Positions 43,354-54,288 of a DNA stretch of 64,000 nt are shown in pieces. Positions within the stretch are counted from its first letter, which is position 1. Every line of letters begins with the position of its first letter. A program made the position numbers and the translations under genes. The notes under the pieces are model-generated. The model was not told where the DNA came from. It did no database searches and saw nothing but the letters and a program-made list of their open reading frames with translations. The stretch comes from Cyanobium sp. E1_MAG_00006 (GTDB taxonomy: Bacteria > Cyanobacteriota > Cyanobacteriia > PCC-6307 > Cyanobiaceae): assembly GCA_027488975.1 (NCBI GenBank), contig JAIYAQ010000012.1, positions 186,001 through 250,000 of the forward strand. The letters run 5' to 3'.

Positions 43354-45035
43354 ACCGGTTCAGCGCCCTGTTCAGCCAGCTCGATGGCACCACCCGAACC
43401 GGCGCCAAGCTCGAGGCGCTGGAGCACTATTTCCGCAGTGCCGATCCGGCCGATGCCGCCTGGGCGCTGGCCCTGCTGCTGGGCAAGCGGCGCCGGCGGC
43501 TGATCACCGGCCGGCGGTTGCGGGAGATCTGCCTGCAGGCCACCGGGCTGCCGGACTGGCTGTTCGAGGCCTGCCACAGCCAGGTGGGTGATTCGGCCGA
43601 AACCGTGGCGCTGCTGTGGCAGCAGGCCCGTCCATCGGGATTGGAGGCAGAGCCCCCCCAAGATGCCGCGGCCAATCAGGCCAGCCAGGTGCCGCTGCAT
43701 CAGTGGATGGAGCAGCGTCTGCCGCGGCTGGCGGCATTGCAAGGGGAAGAGCAGGCCGCGGCCGTGGGCGTCTGCTGGGCAGCACTGCCGGCAGACCACC
43801 TGCTGCTGGTGAACAAGCTGCTCACCGGCGGCTTCCGGGTGGGGGTGTCCACCGGGCTGGTGACGCGGGCCCTCGCCCGCAGCGCAGACCTGGAGGAGGC
43901 GTTGCTGGCCCACCGGCTGATGGGGGGCTTCGAGCCCAGCGCCGAGGCGTTCACCACCCTGCTGCTGCCGGCGGAGCAGGGGCAGGAACTGCGCACGCGG
44001 CCCTATCCCTTCTTTCTGGCCAGTCCGCTGGAGCCCGGCCAGCTGGAGCCCACCGCACCCGGCAGCTGGCAGGTGGAGTGGAAGTGGGATGGCATCCGCG
44101 GCCAACTGATCCACCGCAAGGCCGGCTGCAGCCTCTGGAGCCGCGGTGAGGACCTGATCAACGACGCCTTCCCGGAGCTGATCGCCTTGGCGGCCGCGTT
44201 GCCAGAGGCCACGGTGCTCGATGGCGAGGTGATCATCTGGCGCCGCGGTGAGCCGCGCCCCGAACCCTTCGCCAGCCTGCAGCGGCGGCTGGGACGCAAG
44301 GCACCCAGCGCGGCGCTGCAGCGGGAGTGCCCGGCCTGCTTCATCGCCTACGACCTGCTGGAGCAGGGGGGAGAGGATCTGCGCGAGCTGCCACTGCAGC
44401 AGCGCCGCCAGCGGCTGGAGACGTTGCACCGCCAATGGCTCCGGAGCTGCGGCGATGGCCCCCTGGCAGGGCGACTGCAGCTCTCCGGCACCGAGGTGCT
44501 GGAGCACTGGAGCGGGCTCGACGACCTGCGCGATCAGGCCCGCAGCCGCAGCGCCGAAGGGCTGATGCTCAAGGCCCTCGACTCCCCCTATCTGGTGGGG
44601 CGCAAGCGGGGCTTCTGGTGGAAGCACAAGCTCGAGCCGCTGCGGCTGGATGCGGTGCTGCTCTACGCCCAGGCCGGCAGCGGACGCCGCGCCAACCTCT
44701 ACACCGATTACAGCTTCGGCCTCTGGGACGGCGACCCAGCCGGCGGCGGCCAGCTGGTGACCTTCGCCAAGGCCTACTCCGGCCTCGACGACAGCGAGAT
44801 CCGCGAACTGGATCGCTGGATCCGTGCCCACACCACCGAGCGGTTCGGGCCGGTGCGCTCCGTGCAGCCACTGCAGGTGTTCGAACTGGCCTTTGAAGGG
44901 CTGCAGCGCTCGCGCCGCCACAAGTGCGGCATCGCCGTGCGCTTCCCCCGCATCGCCCGCTGGCGCCGCGACAAGCCGGCCAGCGAAGCCGACAGCCTGG
45001 CCAGCGCCCTGGCCCTACTGGAGGCACAGGCATGA
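43350..45035 (+). CDS. ATP-dependent DNA ligase (TIGR04120-like)
   Basis: WQVEWKWDGIRGQLIHRKAGCSLWSRGEDLINDAFPEL (adenylation motif EWKWDGIR); EGLMLKALDSPYLVGRKRGFWWKHKLEPL. Confidence 0.94.
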   Translation: MNRFSALFSQLDGTTRTGAKLEALEHYFRSADPADAAWALALLLGKRRRRLITGRRLREICLQATGLPDWLFEACHSQVGDSAETVALLWQQARPSGLEAEPPQDAAANQASQVPLHQWMEQRLPRLAALQGEEQAAAVGVCWAALPADHLLLVNKLLTGGFRVGVSTGLVTRALARSADLEEALLAHRLMGGFEPSAEAFTTLLLPAEQGQELRTRPYPFFLASPLEPGQLEPTAPGSWQVEWKWDGIRGQLIHRKAGCSLWSRGEDLINDAFPELIALAAALPEATVLDGEVIIWRRGEPRPEPFASLQRRLGRKAPSAALQRECPACFIAYDLLEQGGEDLRELPLQQRRQRLETLHRQWLRSCGDGPLAGRLQLSGTEVLEHWSGLDDLRDQARSRSAEGLMLKALDSPYLVGRKRGFWWKHKLEPLRLDAVLLYAQAGSGRRANLYTDYSFGLWDGDPAGGGQLVTFAKAYSGLDDSEIRELDRWIRAHTTERFGPVRSVQPLQVFELAFEGLQRSRRHKCGIAVRFPRIARWRRDKPASEADSLASALALLEAQA

Positions 45036-47557
45036 CCCCGCTGGCGCCGATCGAGGCCTGGTTCAGCCACCAGGGCTGGACGCCGATGGCCTTTCAGCGC
45101 GAGTGCTGGCAGGCCTACCTGGAAGGCGAGAGCGGCCTGTTGCAGGTGCCCACCGGCTCAGGCAAGACCTACGCCGCTGTGATGGGCCCGATCGCCGAAC
45201 TGCTGGCCGAACGGCGCAGCGCCGCCCAGGCCCCAGGCCGCCTGCACCTGCTGGTGATCACGCCGCTGCGGGCCCTCAGCCGCGATCTTGCCCTGGCGAT
45301 CGAGGAGCCGATCCAGGCCATGGGCTGGCCGCTGCGGGTGGGCATCCGCAATGGCGACACCAGCAGCCATGAACGCACCAAGCAGCTGCGCACTCCCCCC
45401 GAGATCCTGATCACCACGCCCGAGTCGCTGTCGGTGCTGCTGGCCAACCCCAAGGCGCCGCAGCTGTTCGCCGGCCTGCAGGCCGTGGTGCTCGACGAAT
45501 GGCACGAGCTGATGGGCAGCAAGCGCGGCAACCAGTGCGAGCTCTGCCTGAGCTGGCTGCGGCGGCTGCGACCCGGCCTGCGCACGTGGGCGATCAGCGC
45601 CACCATCGGCAACCTCGAGGAGGCCGCCCACGCCGCCCTTGGCCCCGGACTTGGCCTCTGTGCCAACGCATCCCCCCGCATCATCACCGCGGCTCTGCAG
45701 CGCGACACCGCCATCCGCAGCCTGCTGCCGGAGACGATCGACGGCTTTCCCTGGGGCGGCCACCTGGGGCTGCGCATGTATGAGCGGTTGGTGGCCGGAC
45801 TGGATCCGGCCGTGAGCACGCTGCTGTTCACCAACACCCGCAACCAGGCCGAACGCTGGCACCAGTGCCTGCGCTTCGCCTGCCCGGAGATGGAGGACGC
45901 CCTGGCCCTGCACCACAGCGCCATCGACCGCAGCGAGCGCGAGGCGATCGAGGCACGGGTGAAGAGCGGCGCGCTGCGCTGGGTGGTGTGCACCAGCTCG
46001 CTCGACCTGGGGGTTGACTTCCAGCCGGTGGAGCGGGTGGTGCAGATCGGCTCGGCCAAGAACCTGGCGCGGCTGCTGCAGCGGGCCGGCCGCAGCGCCC
46101 ACTGCCCCGGCGGTACCTCCCAGGTGCTGTTCATGCCCACCAACGCCCTGGAGCTGCTGGAGGTGAGCGCCATGCGCCGCGGACTGAGCGAGGGGCTGGT
46201 GGAACACCGCCGCCCACCGCTACTGCCCCTCGATGTGCTGCTGCAGCACCTCACCACGCTGGCCTGCGGCCCGGGCTTCGAGCCCGCTGCCGAGCTGGCC
46301 ACGGTGCGCCGCTGCTGGAGCTTCCGCTCGCTCAGCGATGCCCACTGGCAGTGGTGCCTGCAGATGCTTGAGCACGGTGGCGCCTGCCTGGGCGCCTATC
46401 CGCGCTACCGCAAGCTGGTGCGCTGCGAACCCGGCAGCGACGAGCCTTCCGCCGAAGGCGCCCCCTACCGCTACCGCGTGCTCGACAAGGCCATTGCCCG
46501 CCTGCACCGCTTCAACATCGGCACCATCACCGCCGATCGCGCCGTGACCGTGCGCTTCGTGCGCGGTGCCGTGCTGGGCCATGTGGAAGAGGCCTTCATC
46601 TCACGGCTCAAACCCGGGGATGTGTTCTTCTTCGCCGGCCGCCAGCTGGAGTTCGTGCGCCTGCGGGAGATGACCGCTCAGGTGAAGGCCACCACCCGCA
46701 AGAGCTCCACCGTGCCCGCCTGGGCCGGCGGCCAGATGGCCCTCTCCGACCTGCTCAGCCAGCAGCTGCGCGATGAGGTGGACCGCTGCGCCCGCGCCCT
46801 GGCCGACGAGGTGGAGCTCGACAGTCCCGAACTGCAGGCCCTCGAACCGCTGCTGCAACGCCAGGCGGATCTCTCCTGCCTGCCAAAAGCCGATCAGCTT
46901 CTGCTGGAGGTGTGCCGCAGCCGCGAGGGCAGCCACCTGTTCGTCTACCCCTTCGAGGGGCGCTTCGTACACGAAGGCCTCGGTTTTCTCTGGGCCTGGC
47001 GGCTGGCACGCCACCGCGCCAGCACGATCACCGTGTCGGTGAACGATTACGGCTTTGAGCTCCTCGCGCCGAAGGGGTATCCCTTCGAGGAGCTGATCGA
47101 GCTGCATGGCGATGCATTGCTCGACGTGGAGCACCTTGATGCCGACCTGGAGCAGGCGGTGAACCTCTCCGAGCTCTGCCGCCGGCGCTTCCGTGCCATC
47201 GCTCAGGTGAGCGGCCTGATCAGCCAGAGCATGCCCGGGCAGAACAAGACAGGCGGCCAACTGCAGATCAGCGCAGCGCTGCTGTTCGATGTGTTCCGGA
47301 AGCACGAGCCCGATCACCTGCTGCTGGAGCAGGCCCGCCGTGAAGTGCTCGAGGAGCAGCTGGAGCGGCACCGGCTGCAGGCCGCCCTGGAACGAATGGC
47401 ATCCAGCCAGTGGCGGCTGGAGCGCATCCCCCGCCCCGGCCCCCTGGCCTTTCCGCTGCTGGTGGAACGGCTGAACAACCGCCTGAGCAATGAATCGCTG
47501 CTGGAGCGGGTGCAGCGGCTGATCAGCGAGGCGCAGCGGGCGGAAGCTCTGGGATGA
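45032..47557 (+). CDS. Ligase-associated DEXH-box helicase (Lhr-like, TIGR04121-like)
   Basis: LLQVPTGSGKTYAAVMGPIAELL; VVLDEWHELMGSKRGNQCELCLSWLR; SSLDLGVDFQPVERVVQIGSAKNLARLLQRAGRSAHCPGG; ATGA overlap with ligase. Confidence 0.93.
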   Translation: MTPLAPIEAWFSHQGWTPMAFQRECWQAYLEGESGLLQVPTGSGKTYAAVMGPIAELLAERRSAAQAPGRLHLLVITPLRALSRDLALAIEEPIQAMGWPLRVGIRNGDTSSHERTKQLRTPPEILITTPESLSVLLANPKAPQLFAGLQAVVLDEWHELMGSKRGNQCELCLSWLRRLRPGLRTWAISATIGNLEEAAHAALGPGLGLCANASPRIITAALQRDTAIRSLLPETIDGFPWGGHLGLRMYERLVAGLDPAVSTLLFTNTRNQAERWHQCLRFACPEMEDALALHHSAIDRSEREAIEARVKSGALRWVVCTSSLDLGVDFQPVERVVQIGSAKNLARLLQRAGRSAHCPGGTSQVLFMPTNALELLEVSAMRRGLSEGLVEHRRPPLLPLDVLLQHLTTLACGPGFEPAAELATVRRCWSFRSLSDAHWQWCLQMLEHGGACLGAYPRYRKLVRCEPGSDEPSAEGAPYRYRVLDKAIARLHRFNIGTITADRAVTVRFVRGAVLGHVEEAFISRLKPGDVFFFAGRQLEFVRLREMTAQVKATTRKSSTVPAWAGGQMALSDLLSQQLRDEVDRCARALADEVELDSPELQALEPLLQRQADLSCLPKADQLLLEVCRSREGSHLFVYPFEGRFVHEGLGFLWAWRLARHRASTITVSVNDYGFELLAPKGYPFEELIELHGDALLDVEHLDADLEQAVNLSELCRRRFRAIAQVSGLISQSMPGQNKTGGQLQISAALLFDVFRKHEPDHLLLEQARREVLEEQLERHRLQAALERMASSQWRLERIPRPGPLAFPLLVERLNNRLSNESLLERVQRLISEAQRAEALG

Positions 47558-50756: not shown

Positions 50757-53000
50757 TCAGGCGGCCACCAGCCAGCGGCCGCAGCACGCCAGCAGCAGCG
50801 CCAGGGCCGAGGCGCCGAGCCAGGCCGCCCGGTTGTTGGCCAGCAGCCGCCGCAGCACCACCACGGCAGCCAACCAACCCAGCAGCACCGCAGCGCTCTG
50901 ACAGAAGGCGATCACATGCGAATCGGCACGCCAGGCCGGCAAAGCGGCCAGCCAGGTGACGAGCCAGGTGTCAAGCCAGCCTGTATCGCCAGCGCCGACC
51001 AGCGGCGCGAAGCTCACCGGCAGCACCGCCCCAGCCTCCGCCATGCCGATCGGCAGGTGGCGAGCCAGCAACAGCGCCCACAGCAGCGGCAGCAGGCCGT
51101 AGAGCGTGCGGCGCAGCCGCGGCGCCGAAAAGAAGGGCCGCGCCAGCAGAAACAGGGCCGACGGCAGGGCCAGGGCGAGGGTTGCGAAGGCGAGGCGAGG
51201 CAGCAGGGGGCCGGCCACCAGGCTGGCGGGGGCCAGCGGTAGCCAACCCAGCAGACGCTGGGCCTGGTGCAGACAGAGATCCCCCGCGAGCACCAGGATC
51301 AGGCCGGGTTCGCCCACGGGGGTATCCATCTCGCGCTGCAGATCAGCCGCCGGCGGCCGAAGGGCCAGCTGCACCGAGCGATGCGGACAGGCCTGGGCGC
51401 AGGTGAGGCAGAGCACACAGTTGCGGTTGTCAGCCAGGTGGGCGGGATGGGTGCCGAGCGGACACCCCCCCGTGGTCAGCCCTTCGCCGTCAGCGGGACC
51501 ACCCTTGAAGCAGGCGTAGCTGCTGCAGCTGCCGCTGCAGGTGCCCACCTGAGCGCGCAGCTCCAGCACCGACAACTTGGCGAACAGGCCGTTCATGCCG
51601 CCCACCGGACAGAGGTAGCGGCACCAGAACCGCTTCTCGAAGCGCAGCGAGCCGATCACCGCACCGGCAGTGATCAGCAGCAGCAGGCAGCTGCTCAGCC
51701 AGGCGGTGTTCTGCAGGTTCCACACCTCCTCCCAGAGCAGGATCAGGGCGAAGCCCGCCGCCAGCAGCGGCGAGGCCCAGTCGTCGCTGTTGCCGCGCGG
51801 CCAGCGGGCCGGCTGCCAGCCGAGGGCCCGCGCCGCCCGCTGGGTGATCTCCCCCCAGACCATGAACGGGCAGAAGGAGCACCACAGCCGGCCCACCAAG
51901 GGAAAACCCAGCAGGATCAGCGGCCACCACCAGGCCCAGAACAGATTGAGGGCACCGTTGTGGTCGCGATCCTGCGGCCCCAGCCACAGCCAGAGGTTGA
52001 CCAGCACAAACAGCCAGCTCACCAGCCCGTACAGGAGCGTGTTCCAGAGCCATGGCGCCCGCATCCACTCCCTGAGGCGAGGCTTCCAGCGCCAGATGTC
52101 AAAGCGCAGGCGCTGCTGGCGGGGCGACGTCCAGAACACATCCTCCGGCAGGAGTGCAGGCCAGGCGGCCTGTCCGTTGGTCCCCCCCTGGCGCCGCACC
52201 TGTTGCAGGGCGCGGTAAATCAGCGTCTCGAGCTCGCGCAGATTGTTGGGGAAGTCGTAGCTCTGCAGCCGCTTGACCACCGCCTCCGGGACCTCCGGGG
52301 GATGGGGCCAGCCGAGCTTGCGGCTGCGCTGACGCACGCCGTAGCGGAGCCATTCGCCCAGATCCTGGCGCCGCACCCGCAGGGGCGGCACGCGGATCAG
52401 GCTGCAGGCACGATCAAAGGCCGGCGTTGCCTGCTCCGCGGTGAAGAACACACGGCCGGGAAAATGACGCCAGGGGCCGGCGGCATCACCATCGGAACAG
52501 GCGGGCCGCCATTGACCGGTCTGGGCCAGATGCAGCAGCAGAGGCCGCAGGTCGACCGGCACCTGATCGAGCTTGTCGATCAGCAGGGCGCCGCGAGCAA
52601 GCAGTTCCAGCAGCGGTCGTTCAGAGTCGTCGGCCACGGTGCCGAACAGATCGGATCCATCAGGCCGCAACAGGGCACCATCGAGCTGCAGCATCAGCTG
52701 GTGGCGAGCGGCGGAGCCGAAGTGGATCAGGGCAGCCAGGTTGTCCTTCTCTAGGCCGGGCTCTCCGCTGATCAGCACCGGCCGTGCCGTGACATCAGCG
52801 GCGGCGAGCCTCACGGACTCGCGCAGGCTGCGGGCATAACGACTGCTGCCAACCACGCCGCGCCGGGCCCGACCCACCAGCAGCGGCGCCAGCCGCAGCA
52901 GCTCGGCCGGCTGTCGCAACGGTGACTCCAGCGGTGCTGAGCTCACGGAGGCGTCGGCAGTGTTCTCCAGTGTGATGCCGAGGCCGCAACGCAGCAGCAC
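50757..53000 (-). CDS. Degenerate sigma-54-activator-type AAA+ domain fused to a NapH/NosR-like membrane polyferredoxin
   Basis: AAA+-like N-terminus (LVGRARRGVVGSSRYARSLRESVRLAAADVTARPVLISGEPGLEKDNLAALIH; NNLRELETLIYRAL), then multi-TM region with WCSFCPF, WCRYLCPVGGMNGLF and NCVLCLTCAQACPH 4Fe-4S motif. Confidence 0.85.
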   Translation of the reverse strand: MLLRCGLGITLENTADASVSSAPLESPLRQPAELLRLAPLLVGRARRGVVGSSRYARSLRESVRLAAADVTARPVLISGEPGLEKDNLAALIHFGSAARHQLMLQLDGALLRPDGSDLFGTVADDSERPLLELLARGALLIDKLDQVPVDLRPLLLHLAQTGQWRPACSDGDAAGPWRHFPGRVFFTAEQATPAFDRACSLIRVPPLRVRRQDLGEWLRYGVRQRSRKLGWPHPPEVPEAVVKRLQSYDFPNNLRELETLIYRALQQVRRQGGTNGQAAWPALLPEDVFWTSPRQQRLRFDIWRWKPRLREWMRAPWLWNTLLYGLVSWLFVLVNLWLWLGPQDRDHNGALNLFWAWWWPLILLGFPLVGRLWCSFCPFMVWGEITQRAARALGWQPARWPRGNSDDWASPLLAAGFALILLWEEVWNLQNTAWLSSCLLLLITAGAVIGSLRFEKRFWCRYLCPVGGMNGLFAKLSVLELRAQVGTCSGSCSSYACFKGGPADGEGLTTGGCPLGTHPAHLADNRNCVLCLTCAQACPHRSVQLALRPPAADLQREMDTPVGEPGLILVLAGDLCLHQAQRLLGWLPLAPASLVAGPLLPRLAFATLALALPSALFLLARPFFSAPRLRRTLYGLLPLLWALLLARHLPIGMAEAGAVLPVSFAPLVGAGDTGWLDTWLVTWLAALPAWRADSHVIAFCQSAAVLLGWLAAVVVLRRLLANNRAAWLGASALALLLACCGRWLVAA

Positions 53001-53047: not shown

Positions 53048-53629
53048 ATGACCCTCACCCTCTACGGCGGTGCCCGCAGCCGCGCCTCGATGCCGCGCTG
53101 GTACATGGAAGAGAAGGGCATCGCCTACGCGTGGCACCAGCTGGATCTGGAGGCGGGTGAGCACCGCTGCGAACCCTTCACACGCATCAACCCGTTCGGC
53201 AAGGTGCCGGCCCTGGTGGAGGAGGACCCGGGCCTTCCCGGCGGGCGGGTGCAGCTGTTCGAGAGCGGCGCGATCCTGCTCTATCTGGCCGAACGCCACG
53301 GCGGTGAGTGCCGCACAGCCGCCGAGCGGGCCCTGGCCCAGCAGTGGGTGCTGTTCGCCAATGCCACCCTGGCCACAGCTCTGTTCGTGCCGAGCAACCG
53401 CGAGCGCGAGTTTCCCCGGCTGATGACGGTGCTCGATGGGCTGCTGGCCGGCGGACATCCCCTGATCGGCAGCGACTGGGGCGTGGCCGACTGCGCCGTG
53501 AACGCCTATCTGGCCTATCTGCCGATCTTCTTCCCCCAGATCGACCTCAGCCCTTATCCGAACGTGCAAGCCACGATCGCCGCCACCCAGCAGCGCCCTG
53601 CCTACCAGCAGGCCATGGGGCAGCGGTGA
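53048..53629 (+). CDS. Glutathione S-transferase family protein
   Basis: MTLTLYGGARSRASMPRWYMEEKGIAYAWHQLDLEAGEHRCEPFTRINPFGKVPALVEED...LFESGAILLYLAERH. Confidence 0.92.
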   Translation: MTLTLYGGARSRASMPRWYMEEKGIAYAWHQLDLEAGEHRCEPFTRINPFGKVPALVEEDPGLPGGRVQLFESGAILLYLAERHGGECRTAAERALAQQWVLFANATLATALFVPSNREREFPRLMTVLDGLLAGGHPLIGSDWGVADCAVNAYLAYLPIFFPQIDLSPYPNVQATIAATQQRPAYQQAMGQR

Positions 53630-54288
53630 GCGGGGCCGGCCGGGCCTGGCCGGGAGCCGCGGAGCTTCACTGGCATGGTCACCGCCTGGAGCTGCTGCCG
53701 GAGCGCGCTGTCTGGGATCCGGCCCAGGGGCTGCTGCTGCTAGCGGATGTCCATCTGGGCAAGGCGGAGTGCTTCCAGGCCAGCGGCATTCCCCTGCCCA
53801 GCGATGGCGACCTGGCCAATCTCAACCGTCTGCTGACGCTGGCCCATGGCCTGAGGCCGCAGCGGGTGGTGGTGCTCGGAGATCTGATCCACAGCCGCCT
53901 GGGCCTCACCGGCGAGCTCCGCCAGAAGCTAAGCGCGCTGCCGGAGTTGCTGGGCTGCCCGCTGCAGCTGGTGGGCGGCAACCATGAGGCCGGCAGCTGG
54001 CTGGCGCGGCTGCCGGCGGAGTCGTCCCAAGGCTGCGGCCCGCTCTGGCTGAGCCATATGCCGCAGCAAGCGCCCGGTTCTGAGCAGCTCAACCTCTGCG
54101 GTCACCTCCATCCCGTGGCACTGCTCGGCGGCGGCGCCGACCGGCTGCGGCTGCCCTGCTTCGGGTTCGACCGGCAGCGAAGGCAGCTGCAGCTGCCGGC
54201 CTTCGGTGACCTCACCGGCGGCCATCCCTGCGCCCGAGAGCTGCAGCGCTGGGTGGTGGCGGACGACCAGGTGCTGGCCCTGCCATGA
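53626..54288 (+). CDS. pdeM: Ligase-associated metallophosphoesterase PdeM (TIGR04123-like)
   Basis: LELLPERAVWDPAQGLLLLADVHLGKAECFQASGIPLPSDGDLANLNRLLTLA; VVLGDLIHSRLG; LVGGNHE; LCGHLHPVA; GTG start overlaps the GST stop. Confidence 0.9.
   Translation: MSGAGRAWPGAAELHWHGHRLELLPERAVWDPAQGLLLLADVHLGKAECFQASGIPLPSDGDLANLNRLLTLAHGLRPQRVVVLGDLIHSRLGLTGELRQKLSALPELLGCPLQLVGGNHEAGSWLARLPAESSQGCGPLWLSHMPQQAPGSEQLNLCGHLHPVALLGGGADRLRLPCFGFDRQRRQLQLPAFGDLTGGHPCARELQRWVVADDQVLALP

Follow-up and report, generated by a model that had tools for sequence, protein, structure and literature searches.

A sigma-54-activator-type AAA+ domain fused to a membrane 4Fe-4S protein in cyanobacteria

What happens to the ATPase of a sigma-54 activator in bacteria that are generally without sigma-54? 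The sigma-54 system is generally missing from cyanobacteria. According to a published survey, 29 cyanobacteria have neither sigma-54 nor its activators (PMC3162934). The question is raised by one gene in the window, that is, the whole 64,000-nucleotide stretch of Cyanobium sp. E1_MAG_00006 DNA analysed here, in which an ATPase domain like that of the enhancer-binding proteins (EBPs) is joined to a membrane ferredoxin. A sequence-only reading of the window had judged a normal sigma-54 activator role unlikely, and our search of this genome for rpoN, which returned none, bears this out. Across 296 genomes of the phylum only two rpoN matches exceeded the cut-off, both partial. One reached 23 bits; the other (L178, G147:C1:411956-412339) is a 202-aa open reading frame of a cyanobacterium that matches Sigma54_DBD at 62 bits and ends in an RpoN-box-like sequence (RRTVTKYCKIARIKSS), possibly an rpoN relic, and no full rpoN was seen there.

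The gene is a 747-aa open reading frame with a GTG start, placed where the sequence-only reading had put it. Residues 1-30 show no conservation, and the true start codon is uncertain. Its parts, in window positions, are as follows.

50757-53000, minus strand: whole gene, 747 aa, EBP-type pseudo-AAA+ domain plus membrane 4Fe-4S protein (Pfam, NCBIfam, conservation)
52401-52871, minus strand: AAA+ alpha/beta subdomain, residues 44-200, with Sigma54_activat homology and no GAFTGA loop (Pfam, PDB, Foldseek)
52737-52766, minus strand: degenerate Walker A, residues 79-88, GEPGLEKDNL (alignment)
52617-52658, minus strand: site where the GAFTGA loop is expected, residues 115-128, GSDLFGTVADDSER; loop absent family-wide (alignment)
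52560-52589, minus strand: Walker B strand, residues 138-147, ALLIDKLDQV, with Lys143 in place of the catalytic Glu (alignment)
52101-52400, minus strand: AAA+ lid, residues 201-300, with sensor II-like FPNNLREL (Pfam, PDB matches)
51576-52100, minus strand: membrane part 1, residues 301-475, predicted TM helices with C374-x2-C377P and C460-x3-C464P (Pfam, AlphaFold2, alignment)
51321-51575, minus strand: ferredoxin-like domain, residues 476-560, with C488, C492, C497, C513 and CVLCLTCAQACP (C528, C531, C534, C538) (Pfam, alignment)
50760-51320, minus strand: C-terminal TM helices, residues 561-747, a homologous region of which also occurs in a free-standing Deinococcus protein (homology, AlphaFold2)

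Pfam places Sigma54_activat at residues 51-166 (27.2 bits against a cut-off of 20.2) and AAA_lid_14 at residues 208-266 (26.8 bits, slightly below the cut-off of 27), and the NorR, NtrX and PspF models of NCBIfam score the AAA half at 47-53 bits, all far below their curated cut-offs. PF00158 matches all 14 control genomes and is weak proof when taken alone; its further matches in the Cyanobium genome are weak. All 34 PDB sequence matches were to EBP-type proteins. With the AlphaFold2 model (mean pLDDT 78.6) as query, the best 50 Foldseek matches were EBP chains or complexes of EBPs, the ATPase domain of NtrC1 (3m0e) reaching a TM-score of 0.75 to the modelled AAA+ domain. Sequence profiles, PDB matches and predicted fold agree with the EBP-type layout first proposed, and the AAA+ domain (residues ~45-300) is of EBP origin, of the sigma-54-activator type.

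The motifs of this domain were then compared among its relatives. As already noted from the letters alone, the window protein reads GEPGLEKDN at Walker A and LLIDK at Walker B, and has neither GAFTGA nor a helix-turn-helix (HTH). No GAFTGA-like sequence occurs in any of the 151 aligned members, the stretch between LFG and Walker B having been shortened by deletion, and in some picocyanobacteria the AAA core or loop region is deleted further (L112, L168). Most picocyanobacteria have D-(Q/K/N/C) as the Walker B pair, and most other members N-N; a Glu at the second position of the pair was found in none of the members aligned, paralogues included, and the arginine finger positions are not conserved. 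A normal EBP from a member of the phylum that does not belong to the cyanobacterial class (L156), used as a positive control, carries GAYTGA, GTGKE and FLDE. Walker A is GEPGLEKDN in most members, with K85 invariant (148/148) and G82 and D86 nearly so; among the orthologues D86 is invariant as well. In 12 of 142 orthologues (4/97 picocyanobacterial, 8/45 other) a Gly replaces E84, giving GEPGLGKDN, and all six paralogues analysed have a canonical GKT P-loop. GEPGLGKD is close to a working P-loop, since EBPs themselves carry a Glu after the Walker A Lys; therefore only the loss of the hydrolytic Glu is established, and not that of nucleotide binding. The earlier description of the AAA+ module as inactive thus holds for GAFTGA and the Walker B Glu, but not for Walker A throughout, which is canonical in a minority of orthologues and in the paralogues. 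The invariant K85 and the Gly and GKT variants suggest that nucleotide binding may have been retained without hydrolysis.

The other half has the sequence features of a NapH-like membrane ferredoxin, as had been proposed. The motifs WCSFCPF, RYLCPVGGMNG and CVLCLTCAQACP are present, Fer4_5 scores above its cut-off (28 bits; two stretches, best 440-477), and the 12 cysteines, C374, C377, C460, C464, C488, C492, C497, C513, C528, C531, C534 and C538, are invariant in 148 of 148 members. At the superfamily level the protein is NapH/NosR-like, with Fer4_5 stretches and CP motifs beside TM helices and a 4Fe-4S motif; the NapH model itself (TIGR02163, residues 368-544) scores 35.6 bits against a curated cut-off of 213. 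Judging by the positively charged loops next to them, the cysteine motifs would be cytoplasmic, and probably bind two to three [4Fe-4S] clusters at the cytoplasmic face. A plasmid of Deinococcus ficus encodes the membrane half alone, with neither AAA+ nor CRP-like domain (WP_027463891.1, L175:7042-9323; 30% identity across 97% of the membrane half, C-terminal TM helices included), and therefore this half can stand without AAA+. In Deinococcus ficus the 4Fe-4S gene lies downstream of, and overlaps the end of, a gene for a histidine-rich, probably exported protein, which suggests metal handling.

The fusion is widespread. In the genus, 20 of 25 genomes have a match, which in 18 of them spans most of the protein, and two of these 18 copies carry one internal stop; within the gene's own family it is present in 76 of 150 good genomes, and GTDB species genomes hold 552 encoding stretches. 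Our scan of genome contigs took the best 80 loci, nearly all of them picocyanobacterial; most other cyanobacterial lineages sampled also carry the fusion protein. One further copy, 69% identical, sits in a metagenome-assembled genome titled Bifidobacterium breve (L057), which is almost certainly cyanobacterial and mislabelled. In other Cyanophyceae the orthologues are mostly about 825-885 aa long (~845) and begin with a CRP-like domain (PF00027), of which Pfam detected none (CRP/FNR-type cNMP domain) in the window protein and which the picocyanobacterial form lacks. As the longer form is that of most cyanobacteria, the window form is a truncated one. Binding of a cyclic nucleotide by the CRP-like domain is doubtful because its canonical phosphate-binding residues, including the usual Arg, are not conserved in the orthologues. 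In the tree the picocyanobacterial, main and paralogue groups are separate, their order being uncertain because of long branches. The CRP-like domain, the canonical P-loops, the sulphide-island paralogue described below and the Deinococcus membrane half all go beyond what the sequence-only reading contained.

Ordinary EBP action is impossible for this protein because the sigma-54 contact, the hydrolysis residue and the DNA-binding domain are gone. We consider it the most economical reading, and give it about an even chance, that the protein acts as an Fe-S redox relay or sensor in the membrane and has retained its EBP-derived pseudo-ATPase as a nucleotide-sensing or oligomerising platform, and is no transcription activator. 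Its core would be a membrane-bound NapH-like 4Fe-4S redox protein built on the twelve invariant cysteines, which carries on its cytoplasmic side an AAA+ domain that came from a sigma-54 EBP and was stripped of GAFTGA, Walker B Glu and DNA-binding domain. So stripped, the domain cannot remodel sigma-54 RNA polymerase and has most likely lost ATP hydrolysis too; it may have been kept as a nucleotide-responsive or constitutive platform for oligomerisation or regulation, which could tune electron flow or report the redox state of the clusters or of quinone to a partner. The ancestral CRP-like domain in front would have supplied a second input, lost in picocyanobacteria. This is compatible with the sensor or assembly scaffold first suggested for the AAA+ part, either of which it may be. 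The architecture is well supported; we infer the mechanism and, for the window protein, Fe-S clusters, topology, oligomerisation and the relay or sensor role. Three observations count against this explanation: the main clade has no conserved neighbour or partner, the similarity to NapH is far below the cut-off, and the faster-evolving, further-deleted AAA core also fits slow loss.

The last of these points to the alternative that the AAA+ part is vestigial and slowly decaying, the working protein being a membrane ferredoxin for electron transfer. Within the picocyanobacterial sample the AAA core is only 57% identical, whereas identity reaches 80-84% in the first membrane part and the ferredoxin part (84% in the ferredoxin region); the CRP-like domain has already been lost, the loop region is further deleted in some picocyanobacteria, and the membrane half occurs alone in Deinococcus. 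In G332, too, the AAA part has a frameshift and stops, but the reading frame of the membrane half is open. A few copies of the gene as a whole are split or stop-bearing (G280, G364, G008, G228, G295 and G332), as expected of a non-essential gene. Apart from G008, these are picocyanobacterial copies and several come from one genus (g9), which suggests ongoing loss there. Selection nevertheless speaks against decay. In close pairs the AAA core had a dN/dS of 0.07-0.36 and the lid one of 0.06-0.22; the first membrane part stood at 0.04-0.19, the ferredoxin part at 0-0.12 and the C-terminal helices at 0.10-0.35. By these values the AAA part is constrained, less than the ferredoxin but similarly to the C-terminal helices, and GEPGL(E/G)KDN is almost invariant throughout the main clade. 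The fusion of AAA+ domain and membrane ferredoxin is real and under purifying selection, and we regard a vestigial AAA+ part as unlikely.

Gene neighbourhoods give a different picture for the window's clade and for its paralogue. In the main clade no conserved neighbour or functional partner was found, and the synteny in the gene's own family is purely local, involving GST, GGACT and helicase/phosphoesterase genes. The divergent GST-like gene is the following.

53048-53629, plus strand: divergent GST-like gene, starting 47 bp away; a homologue lies nearby in 49 of 81 sampled loci, some of which have cut flanks

It is probably outside the mechanism. The gene is also flanked by an Lhr-like DEAD-box helicase (44924-47557) and a calcineurin-like phosphoesterase (53308-54288), possibly a ligase-associated DNA-repair pair, and this arrangement recurs in many relatives. 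Co-occurrence with NiFe hydrogenase (odds ratio 15 across 151 genomes) breaks within the genus, where G008 and G016 encode the protein but no hydrogenase, and G003, G014, G017 and G018 show the reverse; we read it as a lineage or genome-size effect.

The second clade shares 36-41% identity with the window protein and has the canonical P-loop (GKT), again without GAFTGA and Walker B Glu. In 8 of the 11 loci its gene adjoins cysK (L145, L146, L147, L155, L176, L177, L181, L182); several families are represented, and two of these loci are on plasmids, of Pseudanabaena galeata and Aulosira laxa. The genes nearby include psbA (3 loci), a second petC and those for cytochrome bd subunit II and rhodanese-like proteins. 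MBL-rhodanese proteins similar to persulphide dioxygenases are encoded there too, as are proteins like type III sulphide:quinone reductase that score below the family cut-off. These surroundings are a sulphide and low-oxygen setting. As a redox and sulphur context they count in favour of the relay or sensor reading. They also favour the idea that the family as a whole serves adaptation to sulphide or low oxygen, as an electron carrier linked to quinone that takes part in assimilating or oxidising sulphur and whose AAA+ domain gates assembly with a partner such as CysK. The link is limited to the paralogue, however, while the window's clade lies outside such islands and is present in many cyanobacteria. 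As the main clade has no conserved partner, the paralogue's link to sulphide need not hold for the window protein; it is a hint and no proof for this clade, and the idea is distinctly improbable as its explanation. The literature that we examined on cyanobacterial photosynthesis with sulphide makes no mention of 4Fe-4S or cyclic nucleotide.

A further alternative is a membrane-tethered transcription regulator that acts on sigma-70-type RNA polymerase, in the manner of VpsR or other EBPs without GAFTGA, with the Fe-S clusters as its sensor. VpsR is an EBP that works without sigma-54, and it is among the Foldseek matches; most orthologues, moreover, carry the CRP-like domain. Against this, Pfam detected no HTH in the window protein or in the orthologues scanned, the protein has several TM helices, and the Walker B Glu and arginine fingers are lost, so that we hold such a regulator to be very doubtful. 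An artefact of sequencing or assembly, or two genes joined by error, has practically no chance of being right: the same fusion occurs in hundreds of independent genomes, and no point counted in favour of an artefact.

Collectively, our results favour a redox relay or sensor in the membrane that uses Fe-S clusters and has kept its AAA+ platform. A more specific version, which we offer tentatively and think rather less than probable, is that a sigma-54 activator ATPase became, in cyanobacteria, a non-hydrolysing, nucleotide-gated assembly platform by which a membrane 4Fe-4S electron carrier is switched, and that a sister copy became specialised for photosynthesis under sulphide-rich, low-oxygen conditions. 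In full-text literature we found no description of the fusion protein. It is apparently an undescribed but widely conserved membrane redox protein of cyanobacteria, whose database records ("cyclic nucleotide-binding domain-containing protein", "nitrogen assimilation regulatory protein") mislead surveys of transcription factors, and the sulphide-island paralogue offers a concrete, testable way into its function.

Compared with known systems, the protein shares with the EBPs (NtrX, NorR, PspF, NtrC1; PF00158) the AAA+ alpha/beta and lid fold, the order of motifs and the LFG and FP.N(L/I)REL landmarks. It differs from them in lacking GAFTGA, the Walker B Glu and the HTH, in its degenerate Walker A, in a genome without sigma-54, and in the membrane ferredoxin that replaces the DNA-binding end. 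With NapH/MauN (TIGR02163) and the C-terminal part of NosR it has in common TM helices bearing Cx2CP and Cx3CP, followed by a CxxCxxCxxxCP ferredoxin. Unlike NapH/MauN, whose cut-off it falls far below, it has one canonical CxxCxxCxxxCP, the other set being Cx3Cx4Cx15CP, and it adds C-terminal TM helices and, in front, the AAA+ domain, joined in most orthologues by the CRP-like domain. Deinococcus ficus WP_027463891.1 resembles the membrane half and differs in having no AAA+ or CRP-like domain. VpsR, FleQ and comparable EBPs also have an EBP AAA+ fold that has wholly or partly departed from sigma-54 activation; unlike the window protein, they are soluble and have kept their DNA-binding domain.
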